This document shows positions 46,523 through 55,332 of a stretch of DNA of 64,000 bases, in pieces. The notes under the pieces were generated by a model. That model saw only the letters and a list, made by a program, of their open reading frames with translations, ran no database searches and had not been told where the DNA came from. The position numbers were made by a program, and so were the translations under genes. The stretch is from Leeuwenhoekiella blandensis MED217 (GTDB taxonomy: Bacteria > Bacteroidota > Bacteroidia > Flavobacteriales > Flavobacteriaceae): contig NZ_CH672395.1 in NCBI RefSeq assembly GCF_000152985.1, positions 968,567 through 1,032,566 on the forward strand, in the 5' to 3' direction. Numbering within the stretch: the first letter of the stretch is position 1; each line of letters opens with the position of its first letter.

Positions 46523-47551
46523 ATGAAAAAAGTAGTTTTATGCGCGAGTGCGCTAATGTTTGGGGCTGTTGCTTTTGCGCAATCCAACGTAAGTGATGTC
46601 GTGCAATCGGGAGCAGACAATACTTCAGATGTTACACAGACGGGTACTATGAATGACTCAGATGTAATGCAGTCAGGTACAATTAACCGCTCTTCGGTAA
46701 ACCAATTAGGTGCAGACAACTATAGCAGCGTTAGCTCTACAGGAAGACTCAACTCATCGCAGGTTCAACAGGTACATAACAATAATGAAAGTTATGTGAC
46801 TCAAACAGGACAGCAAAACGGTTCAAGAGTACTTCAAGGTTTTGTGAATAGTGGAGGAACAATTTCACGCGTAGGTAACGATAACTATAGTGAAGTTACT
46901 CAAACAGGTTTCCGCAACTCATCTTATGTTGCACAACAAGATCTGGCTTCAGACCCAAGTGAATTTAATGATTCTTATGTTGTTCAAATAGGAGATTTAA
47001 ATAGCAGCTCTGTTGCGCAGTTAGGGGATGTTAATTTCTCAGATGTTATTCAAAATGGTGATGGTAACGAAGGAACAGTTTATCAAAACGGTGATGGTAA
47101 CTTTTCTTATGCACACCAAGGTGGATTTGGTTTTACAAGTAACGATAATTTAAGTCAAGTATCACAAGTTGGAGACGACAACTATAGCCACGTAGATCAA
47201 TATGGCACATTAGGAACAGATGGTAGCATGTCTATGGTAGCTCAATTAGGTGATGCAAATCAGGCTCTCGTATGGCAAGATGGAGATAGCCATAACTCTG
47301 TTATAACCCAAACCGGTGATGCAAACCTTGCTTATACTCAGCAAAACGGGGATAACTCTGATTCTGAAGTAATGCAAACTGGTGACGCAAACTGGAGTGA
47401 AGTTTATCAATTAGGTTCTGGTCATATGAGTATTGTGACTCAAACTGGAGATATGAACTCTAGCTATGTATCTCAAACCGGAATGACCCATATGAGTACT
47501 GTTACGCAATTGGGTAACTCTAATGTTTCTTCTGTAGTGCAGATAAACTAA
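46523..47551 (+). CDS. Curlin-repeat amyloid fibre subunit (CsgA-like)
   Basis: 342 residues. Signal peptide MKKVVLCASALMFGAVAFAQ, then an almost uninterrupted series of about 27 units of 11 residues with consensus x-S-x-V-x-Q-x-G-x-x-N, e.g. TSDVTQTGTMN, DSDVMQSGTIN, SSSVAQLGDVN, MSIVTQTGDMN. Two units correspond to one 22-residue curlin repeat (strand-loop-strand). It is about twice the length of E. coli CsgA (five repeats), acidic, and almost free of Cys and of Lys. Secreted through CsgG and polymerised on the surface into curli-like amyloid. Longer insertions interrupt the register near residues 110, 155, 205 and 235. Confidence 0.9.
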   Translation: MKKVVLCASALMFGAVAFAQSNVSDVVQSGADNTSDVTQTGTMNDSDVMQSGTINRSSVNQLGADNYSSVSSTGRLNSSQVQQVHNNNESYVTQTGQQNGSRVLQGFVNSGGTISRVGNDNYSEVTQTGFRNSSYVAQQDLASDPSEFNDSYVVQIGDLNSSSVAQLGDVNFSDVIQNGDGNEGTVYQNGDGNFSYAHQGGFGFTSNDNLSQVSQVGDDNYSHVDQYGTLGTDGSMSMVAQLGDANQALVWQDGDSHNSVITQTGDANLAYTQQNGDNSDSEVMQTGDANWSEVYQLGSGHMSIVTQTGDMNSSYVSQTGMTHMSTVTQLGNSNVSSVVQIN

Positions 47552-47572
47552 AAGAGTAATCATTCAAATGAG

Positions 47573-47607
47573 GATGAAGGGAATAGGGATATCTTATTTC
47601 CTTCATC
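47573..47607 (+). terminator. Intra-operon attenuator hairpin after the fibre subunit
   Basis: 13-bp stem (GATGAAGGGAATA at 47573-47585 with TATTTCCTTCATC at 47595-47607, one G-T wobble), 9-nt loop, followed by TTTCTTTC. It lies 21 nt after the stop of the fibre subunit and 30 nt before the next gene. The T-tract is interrupted, so partial termination or 3'-end protection of an abundant csgA-only mRNA is more likely than a full stop. Confidence 0.65.
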
Positions 47608-47636
47608 TTTCTTTCAGTAAATCAAAAGAATAGACT

Positions 47637-48107
47637 ATGAGTTGCTTTTTTAAAACCATATGCATTGTTTTTTTTCTGATGTTTTCCATAATTGGTAAAG
47701 CTCAAGAAGTAGGTCCTAAAGTTTTAAATCAATTAGATCTACTGAGTTCGCAAAGAGCAAATCAAAGTGCTGGCGATATATTTATTGAACAAATAGGAGA
47801 TAGAAATACGGTGCAAACAATTCTAAGTAGTTCTGAGACCTCTATTAACCTAAGTCAAATAGGTGCAGGCAATGTTATTAATGTATCAGACAATTCTGAA
47901 AATTTAAAGTTAACGGTGCTTCAAAATGGAACTAATAATCAAATCTCCAAATACGGCTTATACGCATTGAAGGAGTTCAGTGCAGTACTTATTCAAAACG
48001 GAGAATATCAAAATCTAGATATTTTCGGTTCAAACGAACTCTCTAAAAATATGAAAGTAGAGATGCAGGGTTTAGGTCAAAGTATTGTAATAAGAAACTT
48101 CAACTAG
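47637..48107 (+). CDS. Minor curlin-like subunit (CsgB-like)
   Basis: 156 residues with signal peptide (MSCFFKTICIVFFLMFSIIG then KAQ). Degenerate curlin units are visible: FIEQIGDRNTVQTI, INLSQIGAGNVINVS, LTVLQNGTNNQISK, AVLIQNGEYQNLDIF, VEMQGLGQSIVIRNFN. Each keeps the Q-x-G/N pattern. Position after the major subunit and before the secretion genes suggests a nucleator role equivalent to CsgB; that is inference, the sequence does not prove it. Separated from the CsgH/E gene by 5 nt. Confidence 0.8.
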   Translation: MSCFFKTICIVFFLMFSIIGKAQEVGPKVLNQLDLLSSQRANQSAGDIFIEQIGDRNTVQTILSSSETSINLSQIGAGNVINVSDNSENLKLTVLQNGTNNQISKYGLYALKEFSAVLIQNGEYQNLDIFGSNELSKNMKVEMQGLGQSIVIRNFN

Positions 48108-48112
48108 TCTAA

Positions 48113-48886
48113 ATGTTTAAGAGTAAGCATTTTTTATGGTTTATATGTTGTCTGAGTTCAATGTGTGTATACTCTCAATATTACAATAAAGAAATTCAGG
48201 CAAATCTTAATGCGCAAGAAATAAATGGATTGATTCAATTAGATGCTTTTGCTACCAATAAAACTGAAGTTAATTCTAGTGTGCGTTATGTGTTTTCAAT
48301 CATTTATCCCAACAGTAAAAGCGATACGTTAAAAAAAGAAGTTACCGAAGGTCGCTTAGTTATTAACCCCAATGAAAAAATTGAAGTCTTATCAATCACA
48401 CTTGATAAGGAAGTCGATGAAAAAAAAATTATTCTATTTCTAATTTATGATACTGAAGATAACATCGTAGGTAAAGCAAGATTAGTGTTTGAAGGAGGAG
48501 AGCTTGTAGAAGATGACACAAAAGTAAATGTAATACAACGGCAAAATAACTTAGATGTTCAAGCTTCTAAAGCAGATGGTATAAGCCTTACAGGAATTGT
48601 TGTAGAAGATACTAAAACAAAGCCGGGAAGTGATTTCTATAAAGAATTCTACTCCGACTATCTGTCAAAAAATATAAATGGCAAGTTTATCGTAACCATT
48701 AAGGAAGTTTTGGCGATAGGCCGAAATACAAAAATAGAGGTGCTCGTTGCCAATACTAAAGTTCTTGAATTTATAGTAAGACCGTCAATGGCTTATTTAC
48801 GAGAAATGAAAAATTACGCCATTCTTAGGGTAATCAAACAATTAGAATTAATGAATAAAAACCAAAATACTGTTCAACACTATTGA
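48113..48886 (+). CDS. CsgH-like/CsgE fusion chaperone
   Basis: 257 residues with signal peptide. The N-terminal half (about 22-125, INGLIQLDAFATNKTEVNSS, VRYVFSIIYPNSKSDTLKK) resembles CsgH, a beta-sandwich inhibitor of curlin aggregation: it has the alternating hydrophobic pattern and the hydrophobic ending VGKARLVFEGG. The C-terminal half (about 150-245) matches CsgE: SLTGIVVEDTKTKPGSDFYK, EFYSDYLSK, FIVTIKEVLAIGRNTKIEVL, VANTKVLEFIVRP. CsgE caps the CsgG pore and delivers curlin to it. In E. coli CsgE is a stand-alone protein of about 129 residues. The CsgH assignment is the weaker part. Confidence 0.8.
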   Translation: MFKSKHFLWFICCLSSMCVYSQYYNKEIQANLNAQEINGLIQLDAFATNKTEVNSSVRYVFSIIYPNSKSDTLKKEVTEGRLVINPNEKIEVLSITLDKEVDEKKIILFLIYDTEDNIVGKARLVFEGGELVEDDTKVNVIQRQNNLDVQASKADGISLTGIVVEDTKTKPGSDFYKEFYSDYLSKNINGKFIVTIKEVLAIGRNTKIEVLVANTKVLEFIVRPSMAYLREMKNYAILRVIKQLELMNKNQNTVQHY

Positions 48887-48890
48887 AACC

Positions 48891-49292
48891 ATGAAGTACA
48901 TACTTTTTCTGCTTTTTTTAATAGCATCTTCCACCACGTTTGCACAACAGCTAACGTATCAACCTAAAAATCCAAATTTTGGAGGTGAGACTTTTAATTA
49001 TCAATGGCTTTTAAGTTCTGCAAATGCGCAGAATTCCTTTAAAGATCCTGAAGAAAATGCAGCCAAAGACCAATCAGAATTAGAAAGTTTTGCGAGCAAT
49101 CTGAATAGGCAACTATTAAGTCAAATATCAAGAGGACTATTCACCGCGCAATTGGGAGAAGGGCTAGAGGCAGGGACTTACAATTTTGGCTCTTTAGCTC
49201 TAGAAATATACGATTCAAATGAAGGATTGGTGATCAATATTTTAGACACCAATACGGGTGAACAAACCCAGATTATTGTCCCAAATCAATAA
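48891..49292 (+). CDS. csgF: Curli assembly factor CsgF
   Basis: 133 residues. Signal peptide MKYILFLLFLIASSTTFAQQ followed directly by LTYQPKNPNFGGETFNYQWL LSSANAQNSF-type sequence, the CsgF N-terminal segment that inserts in the CsgG channel constriction (NPNFGG and W-L-L-S-x-A-x-A-Q-N). A helical linker (about 50-85, ESFASNLNRQLLSQIS) and a C-terminal beta region (about 95-133) follow. It anchors the nucleator at the cell surface. Four nucleotides after the CsgH/E gene. Confidence 0.94.
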   Translation: MKYILFLLFLIASSTTFAQQLTYQPKNPNFGGETFNYQWLLSSANAQNSFKDPEENAAKDQSELESFASNLNRQLLSQISRGLFTAQLGEGLEAGTYNFGSLALEIYDSNEGLVINILDTNTGEQTQIIVPNQ

Positions 49293-49299
49293 GATTACA

Positions 49300-50712
49300 A
49301 TGTTAAAACATCATAGTTTATACGTCTTACTTCTACTTATTACCTTAAGCTCTTGTGGATCCTATTTTAACCAACCATTATCTCAGCAGGATGCGCGACT
49401 TGGAGAAGTAACCAGTCATACAACAACCTTAACTCAATTTCCTGAACCTGCTGAGCCGGTGGTTGCCGGGGTTTACAACTTTAAAGACCAGACAGGGCAG
49501 TATAAGAATGTAGAAAACGGAAGTACATTTAGTACGGCTGTTTCTCAGGGAGCAACCACCATGTTGATAAAAGCGCTAGAAGATTCTAAGTGGTTTACAC
49601 CTATTGAACGTGAGAACCTGGGAAACCTCCTGAATGAGCGGAATATAATTAGGTCTACACGGGATGAATATAGAAAGAATAACAATCCAAATGAACCTAA
49701 TTTACCTCCGTTGCTGTACGCAGGTGTTTTGCTTGAAGGTGGAATCATCAGTTATGATTCTAACATAATTACCGGTGGTTTGGGCGCGCGTTATTTTGGT
49801 GTAGGCGGTTCAACGCAATATAGACAGGATCGTCTTACAGTTTATTTAAGAGCAGTTTCGACTTCAAGCGGAAGAGTGCTTAAAACGGTATATGTTTCTA
49901 AAACGATTCTTTCACAGGCTATAGATGCTAGTTTGTTTAGATATGTGAATTTTCAGCGACTTTTAGAGGTAGAAACAGGGTATACTAAAAATGAACCGGT
50001 TCAGTTGGCCATGAAGGATGCCATAGAAAAAGCTGTAGAATCTTTGATTATTGAAGGTATTAAAGATAACCTATGGTCTTCAAAAGAAGGTGTGACCGTA
50101 AATGAGGCTTTGATTGAAAATTATGAAAAGGAAAAGGAGCTTGAAGAATCAACGCGTCTTTATGAGCGAGCATTTTTTACACAAGAATTTAAGCAATCTA
50201 TAGCACTCAGTTTTGCCGGAGCATTACTAGATGGAGATTATGGTAATAAGCAATTTGCTCCATTGGGAGGATTAGGATATACGAGCAGTCTCAATGAGTT
50301 TTTAGCTATAAATGTCAATGCCAACCTTTTCAAGCTTTACGGGGGAAGCGATTTTTCTGAAAGCTACGGAAGCGCCAACCTCAATTTAGAATTCAGAATA
50401 CTTAAAAACGATAAGCTTTCCCCGGTGGTCTATGGTGGAGGTGGCTTGGTCACGAGACTTCAGGGATCAGGAGAAAATGGAAGTGAAGATTTAACAGCGG
50501 CAAAAGTTCAATATGGTTTTGCGGTAGATTATCAACTTGCACCAAGGTTTAGTATGAGACTTTTTGCAGAGCACAATTTGACCTTTACCGATGAGTTAGA
50601 AGCTGCAGTAAGCGGCAAGCGCGACGACTATTACTATAACGTAGGACTAGGACTCAAGTATCATTTCAATTTTGGTAATAGTTCTGATAAGGAGAATACT
50701 TCTATAGAGTGA
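49300..50712 (+). CDS. csgG: CsgG outer-membrane secretion pore with C-terminal barrel-like extension
   Basis: 470-residue lipoprotein, start ATG 49300 (a longer frame from 49258 lies within csgF and is rejected). Lipobox ITLSSCGSYFNQP. The CsgG domain (about 20-285) contains AGVYNFKDQTGQYKN, KALEDSKWFTPIERENLGNL, PPLLYAGVLLEGGIISYDSN, GLGARYFGVGGSTQYRQDRL, TVYLRAVSTSSGRVLKTVYV: the transmembrane hairpins of the nonameric pore. E. coli CsgG ends there (about 277 residues). Here a further 180 residues follow with beta-barrel-like strands: SFAGALLDGDYGNKQFAPLG, VVYGGGGLVTRL, AVDYQLAPRFSMRLFAEHNL, NVGLGLKYHF. The end resembles an OmpA/OmpW-type outer-membrane domain. Confidence 0.88.
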   Translation: MLKHHSLYVLLLLITLSSCGSYFNQPLSQQDARLGEVTSHTTTLTQFPEPAEPVVAGVYNFKDQTGQYKNVENGSTFSTAVSQGATTMLIKALEDSKWFTPIERENLGNLLNERNIIRSTRDEYRKNNNPNEPNLPPLLYAGVLLEGGIISYDSNIITGGLGARYFGVGGSTQYRQDRLTVYLRAVSTSSGRVLKTVYVSKTILSQAIDASLFRYVNFQRLLEVETGYTKNEPVQLAMKDAIEKAVESLIIEGIKDNLWSSKEGVTVNEALIENYEKEKELEESTRLYERAFFTQEFKQSIALSFAGALLDGDYGNKQFAPLGGLGYTSSLNEFLAINVNANLFKLYGGSDFSESYGSANLNLEFRILKNDKLSPVVYGGGGLVTRLQGSGENGSEDLTAAKVQYGFAVDYQLAPRFSMRLFAEHNLTFTDELEAAVSGKRDDYYYNVGLGLKYHFNFGNSSDKENTSIE

Positions 50713-50732
50713 GATTTAATATAAATCGAAAA

Positions 50733-52226
50733 ATGAAAAAAGCATTACTTATAATTTTAGCTATACTGGCATTTTCTTGCAGTGAGGATCCAATAGAAGA
50801 TACCGGATTTGGCACCATCTCAGGAAGCGTTGTTTTAGATGGTGAAAACACGCCATTAGCCAATGTGAAAATTAGTACCAACCCTGTTACAAACACAGTT
50901 TTTACAGATGCTAATGGGGCATTTATAATTGAAGAAGCTCCGGTAGGAGACTATTCTGTTCAAGCCGATTTGGAAGGGTATATCACTGCATTTGAGGCTG
51001 CACGTGTAGAAGAAAATAGAACAAATAATATCGTCTTCGAACTTGAGGTTTCTACGGCAAATAATAAAGCGCCCTTAAAGCCGGTACTCGTGACACCAGA
51101 AGATACTAGTGTAGATGTGGCTACAACTGTTGATTTTGTTTGGACCTCTGGCAGTAACGATGAAGACGAACTTACATATACTCTGGAACTACGGAATATT
51201 ACGGCAAACACTTCAGAGTATTTTGAGAACCTGATAGACACAACACTTACCGTTTCTAGCTTGCAGCGCGGCGCTCAATACATCTGGCAAATAACGGTTA
51301 CAGATGACATTAATCAAGAAGTTTTGAGTGAAGTGAGTCAGTTCTCAACCATTCCTAATCCTGCAAATGCTTTTCATTTTGCACGGGTAATAAACGGTAA
51401 TTCTGTGATTTTTTCTTCAGATCAAAACGGGACAGATGTTGTTCAGTTAACGCATAGTTCTCATAACAGTTTTAGACCTCGCAAGAATACACAAGCAGGT
51501 AAAGTTGCCTTTTTAAGAACTGTAGGTGGAGATACACATATATTTACAATGAATTTAGATGGTACAGCTACCAGACAGATTACTGCTGCTATTCCTGTAA
51601 ATGGTTTTAGACTGAGTGCAATCAATTTTGCTTGGGCACAAAACGGGAGTAAGATCTACTATCCTAATTTTGACAAATTATACAGCATAAATCCTGATGG
51701 ATCTGGTCGTGAACTATTATACCAAACCACAAATGGCTCTTTAATAAGTGAAGTTGCAACAACCGATCTTAATGACAACATTATCGTGTTGAAAACCAAC
51801 AACACTTTAGGTTATGACACCCGAATTTTTACAGTAAGTCTAAGCGCTGGTACAGAAGAGACCATTATTTTAGAAAATGAAGATGGAGCTTCTGGAGGAA
51901 TAGATTTGTCAGCAAATGCAGATGAAGTTATTTATACAAGAGATATAAGCGGTTCAGAAAATTCAAGTTACCGAATATTTCAAAGTAGACTTTTTAAATA
52001 TGATCTAAATTCAAGCACCGAAACTCAAATTCAAACAGATGTTGATCAGGGAGAAAATGATCTTGAGGCAAGATGGTCGCCTTCAGAAGGAGAAATTATT
52101 TTAACCCGTAAAGGAAATAATAGTGCTGCTGAACCGGCGGTTTATATGATAGATTTAAACAGTTCTTCCACCAGCGGGAGTGACATACAGCTTTTTCCTA
52201 ATGCATCTATGCCCGATTGGGAATAG
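50733..52226 (+). CDS. Multidomain lipoprotein of the curli-like operon, function unknown
   Basis: 497 residues from ATG 50733 (an in-frame GTG at 50709 overlaps the csgG stop as GTGA and could be an alternative). Lipobox LAFSCSEDP. Three regions: a carboxypeptidase-regulatory/transthyretin-like domain (about 30-100, GTISGSVVLDGENTPLANVK, TNTVFTDANGAFIIEEAPVG), a fibronectin type III-like domain (about 110-210, APLKPVLVTPEDTSVDVATT, YTLELRN), and a TolB/DPP-type beta-propeller (about 215-497, NGTDVVQLTHSSH, IFTMNLDGTATRQIT, LYSINPDGSGRELLY, PDWE end). Co-directional and close to csgG, so probably part of the operon. No counterpart in the E. coli csg system. Confidence 0.82.
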   Translation: MKKALLIILAILAFSCSEDPIEDTGFGTISGSVVLDGENTPLANVKISTNPVTNTVFTDANGAFIIEEAPVGDYSVQADLEGYITAFEAARVEENRTNNIVFELEVSTANNKAPLKPVLVTPEDTSVDVATTVDFVWTSGSNDEDELTYTLELRNITANTSEYFENLIDTTLTVSSLQRGAQYIWQITVTDDINQEVLSEVSQFSTIPNPANAFHFARVINGNSVIFSSDQNGTDVVQLTHSSHNSFRPRKNTQAGKVAFLRTVGGDTHIFTMNLDGTATRQITAAIPVNGFRLSAINFAWAQNGSKIYYPNFDKLYSINPDGSGRELLYQTTNGSLISEVATTDLNDNIIVLKTNNTLGYDTRIFTVSLSAGTEETIILENEDGASGGIDLSANADEVIYTRDISGSENSSYRIFQSRLFKYDLNSSTETQIQTDVDQGENDLEARWSPSEGEIILTRKGNNSAAEPAVYMIDLNSSSTSGSDIQLFPNASMPDWE

Positions 52227-52242: not shown

Positions 52243-52270
52243 AAAACGTCCTGAAATATCAGGACGTTTT
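52243..52270 (+). terminator. Terminator of the curli-like operon
   Basis: AAAACGTCCTGA / TCAGGACGTTTT stem, 4-nt loop, T-run; 17 nt after the lipoprotein stop. Confidence 0.92.
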
Positions 52271-53507: not shown

Positions 53508-54506
53508 TTGAAAAAAGCACTATTCTTCACGAGTTTAATCGCAATACTTTTATGTTTTGAAGGAATTCAAGCCCAACACGTGGCCTTTCCGCTTCCTTTA
53601 AAAAAGAATTTAGTAAAGCGTTTAACTGAACAATTGGCGCCAAAGCCTGAGACCAATTGGAAAAAATTAAACCGTGTAGGAGTAGATTTAAGTGAAGTTG
53701 CTTTTGTAAACTGGAATGCCGGTGGTAGTAATTCGATCTCCGGTTTAGCTGAAGTTGTACTTGAACGAAATTATTCTGATAGTAATAAAAAATGGCGTAA
53801 TAAACTGGTCACGCGGTACGGTGTCAATAGTCAGGAAGGGCAGGAGATTCGTAAGACTGACGATATGTTGGAGCTTACTTCAGATTTTGGTTATCGTAGA
53901 GATACTTTATCTAATTGGTATTATTCGGCAAAATTTAGATTTGCTTCTCAATTTACAAACGGTTATAAATATCCAGACACCAGTACGCCTATCTCGCAGT
54001 TTATGGCTCCTGGTTATGTCTTTGTCGGAGTAGGAGGTGAGTATGGTCAACGTTTAGATAACCTTTCTATTTATGCATCTCCTTTAACCTACAAATCCAC
54101 ATTTGTTTTAGATCAAAATCTAGCAAATAATGGTGCCTTTGGGGTTACGCCTGCCGTACGGGATGCAGACGGAAACATCATAAGAGAAGGCTCTAATTTC
54201 AATAGTGAACTCGGTATTCTACTCCAAAGTTCGCTCAAGGCTAGGGTAATGGATAATATAAATCTTACCAATCTCGTAAATCTCTATACAGACTATTTGA
54301 ACAGCTTCGGTAATATTGATATTGACTGGCAGCTTAATTTGAATTTTAAGGTCAACAGTTTTGTGCTGGCAAAGGTCGGGTCTCATCTTAAATACGATAA
54401 CGACATTAAGATCACAGAGACCAATGTAGATGGTGATGAGGTCACGATGGGCGCTCGTACACAGTGGAAACAGCAGTTAGGAATAGGTGTGATAGTTGAT
54501 TTTTAA
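53508..54506 (+). CDS. DUF3078 outer-membrane-type protein (TTG start)
   Basis: 332 residues, start codon TTG at 53508 giving (M)KKALFFTSLIAILLCFEGIQ, a Sec signal. The DUF3078 body follows: VGVDLSEVAFVNWNAGGSNS, KWRNKLVTRYGVNSQEGQEI, RKTDDMLELTSDFGYR. Strand-rich with aromatic ends (IDWQLNLNFKVNSFVL) and a terminal GIGVIVDF, so probably an outer-membrane beta-barrel. Function unknown. 24 nt after purM, co-directional. Confidence 0.88.
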   Translation: MKKALFFTSLIAILLCFEGIQAQHVAFPLPLKKNLVKRLTEQLAPKPETNWKKLNRVGVDLSEVAFVNWNAGGSNSISGLAEVVLERNYSDSNKKWRNKLVTRYGVNSQEGQEIRKTDDMLELTSDFGYRRDTLSNWYYSAKFRFASQFTNGYKYPDTSTPISQFMAPGYVFVGVGGEYGQRLDNLSIYASPLTYKSTFVLDQNLANNGAFGVTPAVRDADGNIIREGSNFNSELGILLQSSLKARVMDNINLTNLVNLYTDYLNSFGNIDIDWQLNLNFKVNSFVLAKVGSHLKYDNDIKITETNVDGDEVTMGARTQWKQQLGIGVIVDF

Positions 54507-54591
54507 AAAAAAAGTCAACTATTTAGAAAACCTCAGTTCCATTTTTTTCGTATGTTTTATTCAATCAAATTCCACTAGTGAACCTAAAACT

Positions 54592-55332
54592 ATGAAGTCT
54601 AAATTTAAGCTGGATGATAACAACCTTTTTATCATCTTAATTGTAATAGCCGCCATTATTAATTTGGGGGTTATAGCTTTCATGGAATTAGAATCCAGCA
54701 GACTTACACGACTGGTAACTATTGTACTTCTATTTTGCTACTATCTTTTCAAAAAGGAGAAGATAAACCTCTGGACCGTCGTAGCCTTCGTATTTTTTAT
54801 AAGTAGAGATGTATTCTTTCAATTTTATGAAGAAGCTTGGGGCTATAAAACCTATCTCATTTTGGGGACTCTCTGCTATCTAACTATTGTTTTAGAACGT
54901 TTGCCAAAAATTTCAGAAATCAATTTTAAGCCGGGTGTAGTTTTAGTGACACTTTTTCTGGTAGCAGCAAACACGTATACACTCTATGTGATTATGAATA
55001 TGAGTATGGTTACCTATACCTTTCATGACGGTTTAGAACCTATTCTATTATATGTTTATGGCGCTGCAATGATGATTCTTGGTGTACAGGCGATTGCTTA
55101 TAATAACAAATACAACAGCAACAGATCGTTGTTGTATATTTTCTTCGCATTCGGGTTTATTTTTTCAGATATCGCGGCTTTATTTGCATACTACTTTGAA
55201 TTTGGTTCATTTTACTTCCTTGATCGCTTTTTCTTTCTTGGCGCAATGGCGCTTTTTATGAATTACGGTCTCAACTACGAGAGTGTGAAAGAAGAGTATT
55301 ATCAATATGAAATGATTGATAAAAAGCTCTAA
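54592..55332 (+). CDS. Multi-pass membrane protein, possibly YhhN-like
   Basis: 246 residues with about eight hydrophobic helices and short loops. ATG 54592 (MKSKFKLDDNNLFIILIVIA) is preferred; the upstream in-frame extension overlaps the DUF3078 gene. The last helices (FAFGFIFSDIAALFAYYFEF, RFFFLGAMALFMNYGLNYES) faintly recall the lysoplasmalogenase-like YhhN/TMEM86 family in helix spacing and the SD-containing helix, but key residues are not conclusive. Treat as unknown. Confidence 0.7.
   Translation: MKSKFKLDDNNLFIILIVIAAIINLGVIAFMELESSRLTRLVTIVLLFCYYLFKKEKINLWTVVAFVFFISRDVFFQFYEEAWGYKTYLILGTLCYLTIVLERLPKISEINFKPGVVLVTLFLVAANTYTLYVIMNMSMVTYTFHDGLEPILLYVYGAAMMILGVQAIAYNNKYNSNRSLLYIFFAFGFIFSDIAALFAYYFEFGSFYFLDRFFFLGAMALFMNYGLNYESVKEEYYQYEMIDKKL

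Follow-up and report, generated by a model that had tools for sequence, protein, structure and literature searches.

A curli operon of Bacteroidota form in Leeuwenhoekiella blandensis joins a CsgC/CsgH-like domain to CsgE, a junction apparently recoded in some Flavobacterium

What prevents a functional amyloid from doing harm before it is outside the cell is an open question, and it is raised by the locus at positions 46523–52226 (+) of a 64,000-nucleotide stretch of the Leeuwenhoekiella blandensis MED217 genome (contig NZ_CH672395.1; this whole stretch is hereafter the window). Judging from its genes, the locus probably encodes a working curli (type VIII) secretion machine in its Bacteroidota form, and the secretion adaptor CsgE encoded there appears to carry at its N-terminus a domain related to the amyloid inhibitors CsgC and CsgH. 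Such a natural fusion suggests that inhibitor and adaptor act at the same place, and it makes the hand-over between CsgC/H and CsgE directly testable in one polypeptide. The most surprising lead comes from relatives: in part of Flavobacterium the two halves lie in different reading frames, joined at a run of ten A's, which suggests programmed slippage.

The six genes are co-directional and closely spaced, with gaps of 85, 5, 4, 7 and 20 bases in the list of open reading frames (ORFs); for genes 5 and 6 we adopted ATG starts, where the mechanical ORF list begins at an upstream GTG (49258 and 50709). Curated Pfam cut-offs are passed by genes 1, 3, 4 and 5, for the curlin repeat, CsgE (43 bits, 6.2e-11), CsgF (125.6 bits, 1.9e-36; csgF, 48891–49292, +, 133 aa) and CsgG (225.9 bits against a cut-off of 20.8, 4.5e-67, aa 47–261), respectively. 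The original prediction of a six-gene curli operon, which had named 48113–48886, 48891–49292 and 49300–50712 as the frames that should match Csg families, is upheld: all six genes are present, and these three are the ones that match CsgE, CsgF and CsgG. Chance resemblance to curli is excluded by the profile scores and by conservation.

Nor is the layout a private oddity of this genome, an idea that we rejected on finding it standard in the family. With CsgF as the cleanest marker, 42 of 199 family genomes were positive, the window genome included, and the other 41 loci keep the order curlin(s), csgB-like, csgE, csgF, csgG and lipoprotein as far as each piece reaches (L041 ends inside csgG at a contig end; in L060 no long curlin was recognised upstream). 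Of these 41, 31 are preceded by a glutamine-synthetase-like gene and 36 are followed by a PurM-like one, both named by eye. Among 79 named loci, which overlap the 41 and are biased to close relatives because they were limited to the best 80 among the matches listed, 76 have a fused CsgE, a CsgG with barrel (described below), CsgF and the lipoprotein; of the remaining three, one is cut before csgE (L189), one is split (L207) and one has its best matches to the csgG core and barrel in different ORFs (L169). The nearest named CsgG among the matches listed is that of Leeuwenhoekiella sp. SP167 (71%). The architecture had been called non-standard, which holds only against E. coli, since within the family such an order of genes is the rule.

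In the 257-residue product of gene 3 (48113–48886, +), the Pfam CsgE domain occupies aa 159–254 only (48587–48874, +). We therefore turn to what precedes it, aa 25–132 (48185–48508, +). A profile of the 42 family CsgE proteins, searched against 177,635 PDB sequences, matches CsgE (2na4, 3.1e-10) and, via its N-terminal part, CsgC (2xsk, 0.003; 2y2t, 0.0034). AlphaFold2 places seven main strands at aa 28–127 with high confidence (predicted local distance difference test, pLDDT, 84–97 per block of ten over aa 21–130) and a disordered linker at 137–154. Foldseek returns CsgH 2n59 at rank 3 (1.2e-5, template modelling score, TM, 0.65 of target) and CsgC 2xsk at rank 6 (2.7e-5, TM 0.77). Further evidence comes from curli loci across the phylum. 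Of 20 loci from a phylum-wide draw, in which the two families known here to carry the fusion account for 6, four have the fusion, two the split form, five a separate csgH-like gene and nine none within the stretch fetched. The separate genes are found by the N-domain profile (best E 7e-12, 4e-11, 7e-8, 1e-7 and 2e-7) and match Pfam CsgH and/or CsgC, L115 alone exceeding the CsgH cut-off (31.0 against 27 bits); as a set they align with the fused domain in hhalign at 98.0% and 2.4e-13. By profile, model and hhalign, the fused part thus belongs to the kin of CsgC/CsgH, in agreement with the predicted "CsgH-like/CsgE" nature of gene 3, and a predicted seven-stranded inhibitor-like domain at the N-terminus of CsgE is a new observation here. 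The kinship in fold and sequence is detectable with profiles, and weak or absent for single sequences. The N-terminal extensions of CsgE in other Bacteroidota were also considered as the same domain and rejected (hhalign, no relation, probability 0.1%). In L117 two csgH-like genes stand in tandem between the curlins and the lipoprotein (L117:12346–13221).

Could this domain instead be an immunoglobulin (Ig)-like spacer or oligomerisation module, resembling CsgC/CsgH in fold only? A number of observations lean that way or weigh against our interpretation. The best Foldseek matches include Ig domains of GH2 enzymes, which score equally; the family profile did not retrieve the solved CsgH in the PDB search; no Pfam CsgC/CsgH match is obtained with the single protein of the window; and Tafi-CsgC is matched by one of the 42 members (0.0019), with unrelated families such as DUF1425 (3 members) scoring alike. 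By eye, aa 25–132 of the window protein contain no cysteine, so that the domain lacks the pattern of CsgC/CsgH (CxC or two distant cysteines) and would be neither CsgC nor CsgH by the rule given in the portion of PMC4838910 consulted. It is also acidic, with an isoelectric point (pI) of 4.76 against 4.05 for mature curlin rather than about 2 units above it (the family has a median of 5.19, with 6 of 42 members above 7), whereas the same portion of that paper attributes the action of CsgC and CsgH to positive charge. In the CsgE part the charge is the opposite, basic, with a pI of 9.33 in the window protein and values above 7 in 33 of 42 members. Among stand-alone relatives, the other five separate csgH-like ORFs fall below the Pfam cut-off, and the two csgH ORFs from split-frame loci give a Pfam CsgC/CsgH match of 0.059 in one case and none in the other; the nine phylum loci without a csgH-like gene in the stretch fetched belong on this side as well. 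A search of the genome with PF10610 gave no match; one with PF21112 gave none either, but its control was likewise without a match. Against a mere spacer stand the retrieval of CsgC by the family profile from the whole set of PDB sequences and the hhalign relation to stand-alone genes that sit in curli clusters, one of which passes the Pfam CsgH threshold. We thus consider the spacer unlikely and retain kinship to the inhibitors.

What happens at this junction in relatives was followed in 299 genomes of the genus containing Flavobacterium sp. Leaf82, scanned with the CsgE profile. It matched 74: 35 have the gene split over two frames, 37 have it fused and 2 are weak. All 35 split loci were taken in (34 plus L112, from G502), and L113 and L207 were added from other draws, giving 37 rows (L112, L113, L207 and L238–L271); since L207 and L265, whose contigs share a length of 843,185, apparently come from the same genome, 36 are distinct. 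In all 37 rows the frame of csgE is -1 relative to csgH, and the two meet at a run of exactly ten A's followed by G (A10-G), in one phase, preceded by G in 33 rows and C in 4, and the csgH stop follows 1–31 nucleotides after the run. A conserved frame transition with a conserved slippery site is therefore found in diverged species, identity between split copies going down to 38% (csgH) and 41% (csgE). On one midpoint-rooted FastTree tree, in which one of the seven "out" rows (L131) is itself of the genus, the split or fused state changes 4 times against a mean of 27.5 after shuffling. The lysine codons at the run are AAA (37/37), AAA (36/37) and AAG (36/36), although lysine elsewhere in the gene is usually AAA.

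These regularities suggest programmed slippage at A10-G between csgH and csgE in part of Flavobacterium, where the fused helper is apparently made only via a reading-frame shift at the ten A's. We consider it fairly probable that csgH and csgE form a module that can be tuned: in most of the flavobacteria looked at here, the window among them, the inhibitor would be hard-wired to the adaptor, and part of Flavobacterium would make both free CsgH and the CsgH–CsgE fusion from one gene, the slip setting the ratio of inhibitor to adaptor. The few in-frame species with ten or eleven A's would make both products the other way round. The window gene itself is fused in frame, and by eye its linker has no long A run. 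In 40 fused rows, which include L091 from another genus and three from the phylum draw and leave out the fused genome G747, the linker run is ten A's in 4, eleven in 1 and nine in 2; slipping by one base would soon lead to a stop in L215, L219 and L227, with ten, and in L086, with eleven, as judged by eye in AT-rich DNA where stops are frequent. Across 169 fused rows from all draws, a redundant set with partly bad domain limits, 8 have a run of at least ten A's and 18 gave no run. Long runs are therefore not confined to split loci.

The same junctions might be genes in decay, or phase-variable homopolymers, rather than sites of programmed recoding. Long A runs mutate easily, the CsgE profile matches only a minority of the genus genomes, and the eleven linker A's of L086 would then be an "on" state. 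No stimulators are obvious, with an upstream Shine-Dalgarno (SD)-like element in 1 of 37 split rows and modest downstream folding (z < -2 in 13 of 37), and A10-G occurs 11–25 times per genome anyway (both strands, six genomes), so that the motif is not unique. Phase variation should, however, also yield other run lengths among the split loci, whereas all 37 rows (36 distinct genomes) keep a run of exactly ten in one phase and always a -1 shift, between copies as far apart as given above and with a third lysine codon held at AAG against the habit of the gene. Decay or phase variation is thus an improbable account of them. It is common for overlapping genes to be translationally coupled, and 8 of the 36 distinct loci do have some ATG, GTG or TTG before the CsgE domain. 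Separate translation of CsgH and CsgE with no fusion made is nevertheless very doubtful, as 28 of the 36 lack any such start and the existing ones, placed by eye at the domain or immediately ahead of it, leave no space for the signal peptide of a protein that is periplasmic according to the portion of PMC12822426 consulted; a hydropathy comparison gave no clear separation on this point.

Within programmed slippage, we lean towards a transcriptional rather than a ribosomal event, because the whole run is conserved and SD-like elements are lacking. A ribosomal -1 shift is the other option, the phase being that of the A AAA AAG site of E. coli dnaX. Counting against transcriptional slippage, it may be suppressed where an AT-rich genome tolerates long A runs, as noted in the part of PMC1088944 consulted. 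If the recoding at the ten A's is real, slippage would here set the ratio of a chaperone, to our knowledge an unusual role for it.

The pore shows a second departure from E. coli. The product of csgG (49300–50712, +, 470 aa) has a lipobox Cys19 that is invariant in 41 sequences, and residues 7–277 of its profile align to residues 4–270 of the 277-residue E. coli CsgG chain in the PDB (2.5e-85), after which the window protein runs on. The model gives this extension eight strands at aa 299–456 (50194–50667, +) with pLDDT of 83–96 per block of ten over aa 301–460, except for blocks of 64 and 75, and Foldseek finds OmpA (4.1e-9) and NspA (1.4e-8) with it. Pfam's OMP_b-brl matches aa 305–456 at 3.9e-5, below its cut-off, and matches 34 of 41 family CsgG members. 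Core and barrel lie in one protein in all 19 phylum loci with csgG (L126 has no csgG in its stretch). The core of the model is of low confidence (mean pLDDT 68.9) and the model is a monomer, which tempers the structural reading; an OmpA-like C-terminal eight-stranded barrel on CsgG is nonetheless predicted by the model and is a new observation here. A second CsgG copy in this genome was ruled out, csgG being single. The pore, chaperone and subunit had all been predicted to carry features absent from the E. coli versions, and this is borne out for the pore, by the barrel, and for the chaperone, by the CsgH-like domain.

The sixth gene (50733–52226, +) encodes a lipoprotein of 497 aa with a carboxypeptidase-regulatory-like N-domain (Pfam CarboxypepD_reg domains), an fn3-like middle and a possible beta-propeller C-part, the latter signalled by NCBIfam models far below their cut-offs (best Dpp5, 6.4e-10). 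All 41 aligned lipoproteins match the carboxypeptidase-regulatory-like domain, and 22 match fn3. The window protein has a CSED start that resembles a lipoprotein export signal (LES); two or more acidic residues within positions +2 to +6 after the lipid cysteine are present in 40 of 41 lipoproteins and in none of 41 CsgG proteins. This acidic start resembles the export signal of F. johnsoniae, whose consensus is SDDFE (PMC5080379, in the part consulted), and surface exposure of the gene 6 product is therefore likely. The gene is present in 60 of 61 relatives' loci (40 of 41 in the same family and all 20 in the phylum; the one miss is a contig end) and in all 79 named loci, a set that overlaps the 41 family loci; the 20 phylum copies are full-length in 10, short (207–260 aa) in 9 and cut by the stretch end in 1. 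A conserved sixth operon gene with an export-signal-like start is, as far as the sequences indicate, likewise new here.

Gene 1 (46523–47551, +, csgA-like, 342 aa) has a signal-like N-terminal stretch and curlin repeats (Curlin_rpt, 133.6 bits against a cut-off of 20.7; 2.1e-39 over 10 stretches), and NCBIfam models for CsgB and CsgA match it below their cut-offs. Gene 2 (47637–48107, +, 156 aa), a short putative curlin homologue, had been labelled CsgB-like. This label keeps in its favour an NCBIfam CsgA match (9.2e-6 over aa 44–102, below cut-off) and a position directly 5' of csgE that is kept in relatives; there is no Pfam curlin match, the sole Pfam match being an insignificant one to CgtA (0.094). 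Resting on weak repeats and position, the label is weak. Between the two genes lies a hairpin (47570–47610, +; 18-pair stem, loop of 5; minimum free energy -23.5 for the 85-nt gap). Over the 40 of 42 loci that could be compared (L042 was dropped with gaps below 40 nt, and L060 lacks a curlin pair), the csgA–csgB gap folds with z < -2 against shuffles in 37 (mean -4.9) although sequences differ, compared with 19 of 25 gaps between tandem curlins, 24 of 40 regions downstream of the lipoprotein and 10 of 39 upstream of the first curlin. This strong, conserved hairpin 3' of csgA is a new observation here. A T-rich tail follows it in 18 of 40 loci only, so that a transcript-end stabiliser and a partial terminator are both possible. 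The original prediction that all components share one transcript therefore went too far, the more so as a second, unlinked curlin-repeat gene of 326 aa lies about 2.5 Mb away in contig coordinates (L009:9147–10127, -; contig C1, about 3548146–3549126), with no other Csg genes noticed by eye in the surrounding 19 kb.

Downstream of the operon stands a terminator-like hairpin of 12 pairs (52243–52270, +), a kind of site that is not rare, a scan of the region finding 9 where 6.3 were expected. After the PurM-like gene follows a DUF3078 protein (53508–54506; 3e-27), which is near the same place in 10 of 41 relatives' stretches. A membrane protein at 54496–55332 resembles, by eye, L009:8230–8979, each lying downstream of a curlin locus; proteins related to it, in some cases as tandem copies, are encoded close to the operon in 15 of the 41 stretches from relatives. 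The likeness between the two curlin loci in this respect may be chance.

Beyond the homologies, fusions, conservation and hairpin, which sequence or model carries, we infer the following course of export. The curlin of gene 1 and the likely nucleator of gene 2 would enter the periplasm by Sec, where gene 3 would keep the subunits unfolded through its CsgC/CsgH-like inhibitor domain, flexible linker and CsgE adaptor, so that every CsgE in the cap beneath the pore would have an inhibitor of its own. Subunits would then exit via the CsgG pore, every subunit of which may add an eight-stranded barrel in the outer membrane, and would meet CsgF and assemble outside, with the probable surface lipoprotein of gene 6 helping to anchor or organise the fibre. 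Through the hairpin 3' of csgA, the cell would probably make more subunit relative to machinery. The barrel-bearing pore and the conserved, probably surface-exposed sixth component would define a Bacteroidota form of the machine.

The operon is one of an already known group and differs from E. coli in its chaperone, its pore and an extra component. With csgBAC/csgDEFG of E. coli it shares curlin repeats, CsgE, CsgF and CsgG, and likely the export route; it differs in forming one gene cluster, in the CsgC-like domain fused to CsgE, in a CsgG about 190 residues longer with its barrel, in the extra lipoprotein and in the hairpin after csgA, and csgD is not among the six genes, no genome search for csgD having been made. 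The Bacteroidetes curli operons of Dueholm et al. (PMC3521004) and of a 2025 GTDB survey (PMC12822426) are, in the parts consulted, the same kind of system; the former reported in 2012 that these lack csgC, and csgD outside Spirosoma, and that how large the curlin is has no effect on the size of CsgG. In the main text of these two papers, as consulted and supplements aside, the CsgH–CsgE fusion, the CsgG barrel and the lipoprotein are not described. Literature searches for curli and Flavobacterium gave no title on this subject, and fusion, barrel and frameshift are unnamed in the titles and abstract openings found, to which "not in print" is limited. The words curli and csg do not appear in the parts of PMC3711429 and PMC5009743 consulted, nor "fused" or "fusion" in this sense in those of PMC4838910, PMC5135000 and PMC12822426 ("fusion" being searched in PMC5135000 only). 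With the CsgC/CsgH inhibitors of PMC4838910, which in the part consulted mentions a Bacteroidetes CsgH subgroup, the domain described here shares a seven-stranded Ig-like fold and a place adjoining the subunit genes, and it differs in being fused to CsgE, acidic and free of cysteine. Finally, the split Flavobacterium loci resemble Thermus thermophilus dnaX and insertion sequence (IS) elements, where, in the part of PMC1088944 consulted, 9–10 A's give two proteins with a common N-terminus; in contrast to those cases, what slippage would link in these relatives of the window is an amyloid inhibitor and a secretion adaptor.

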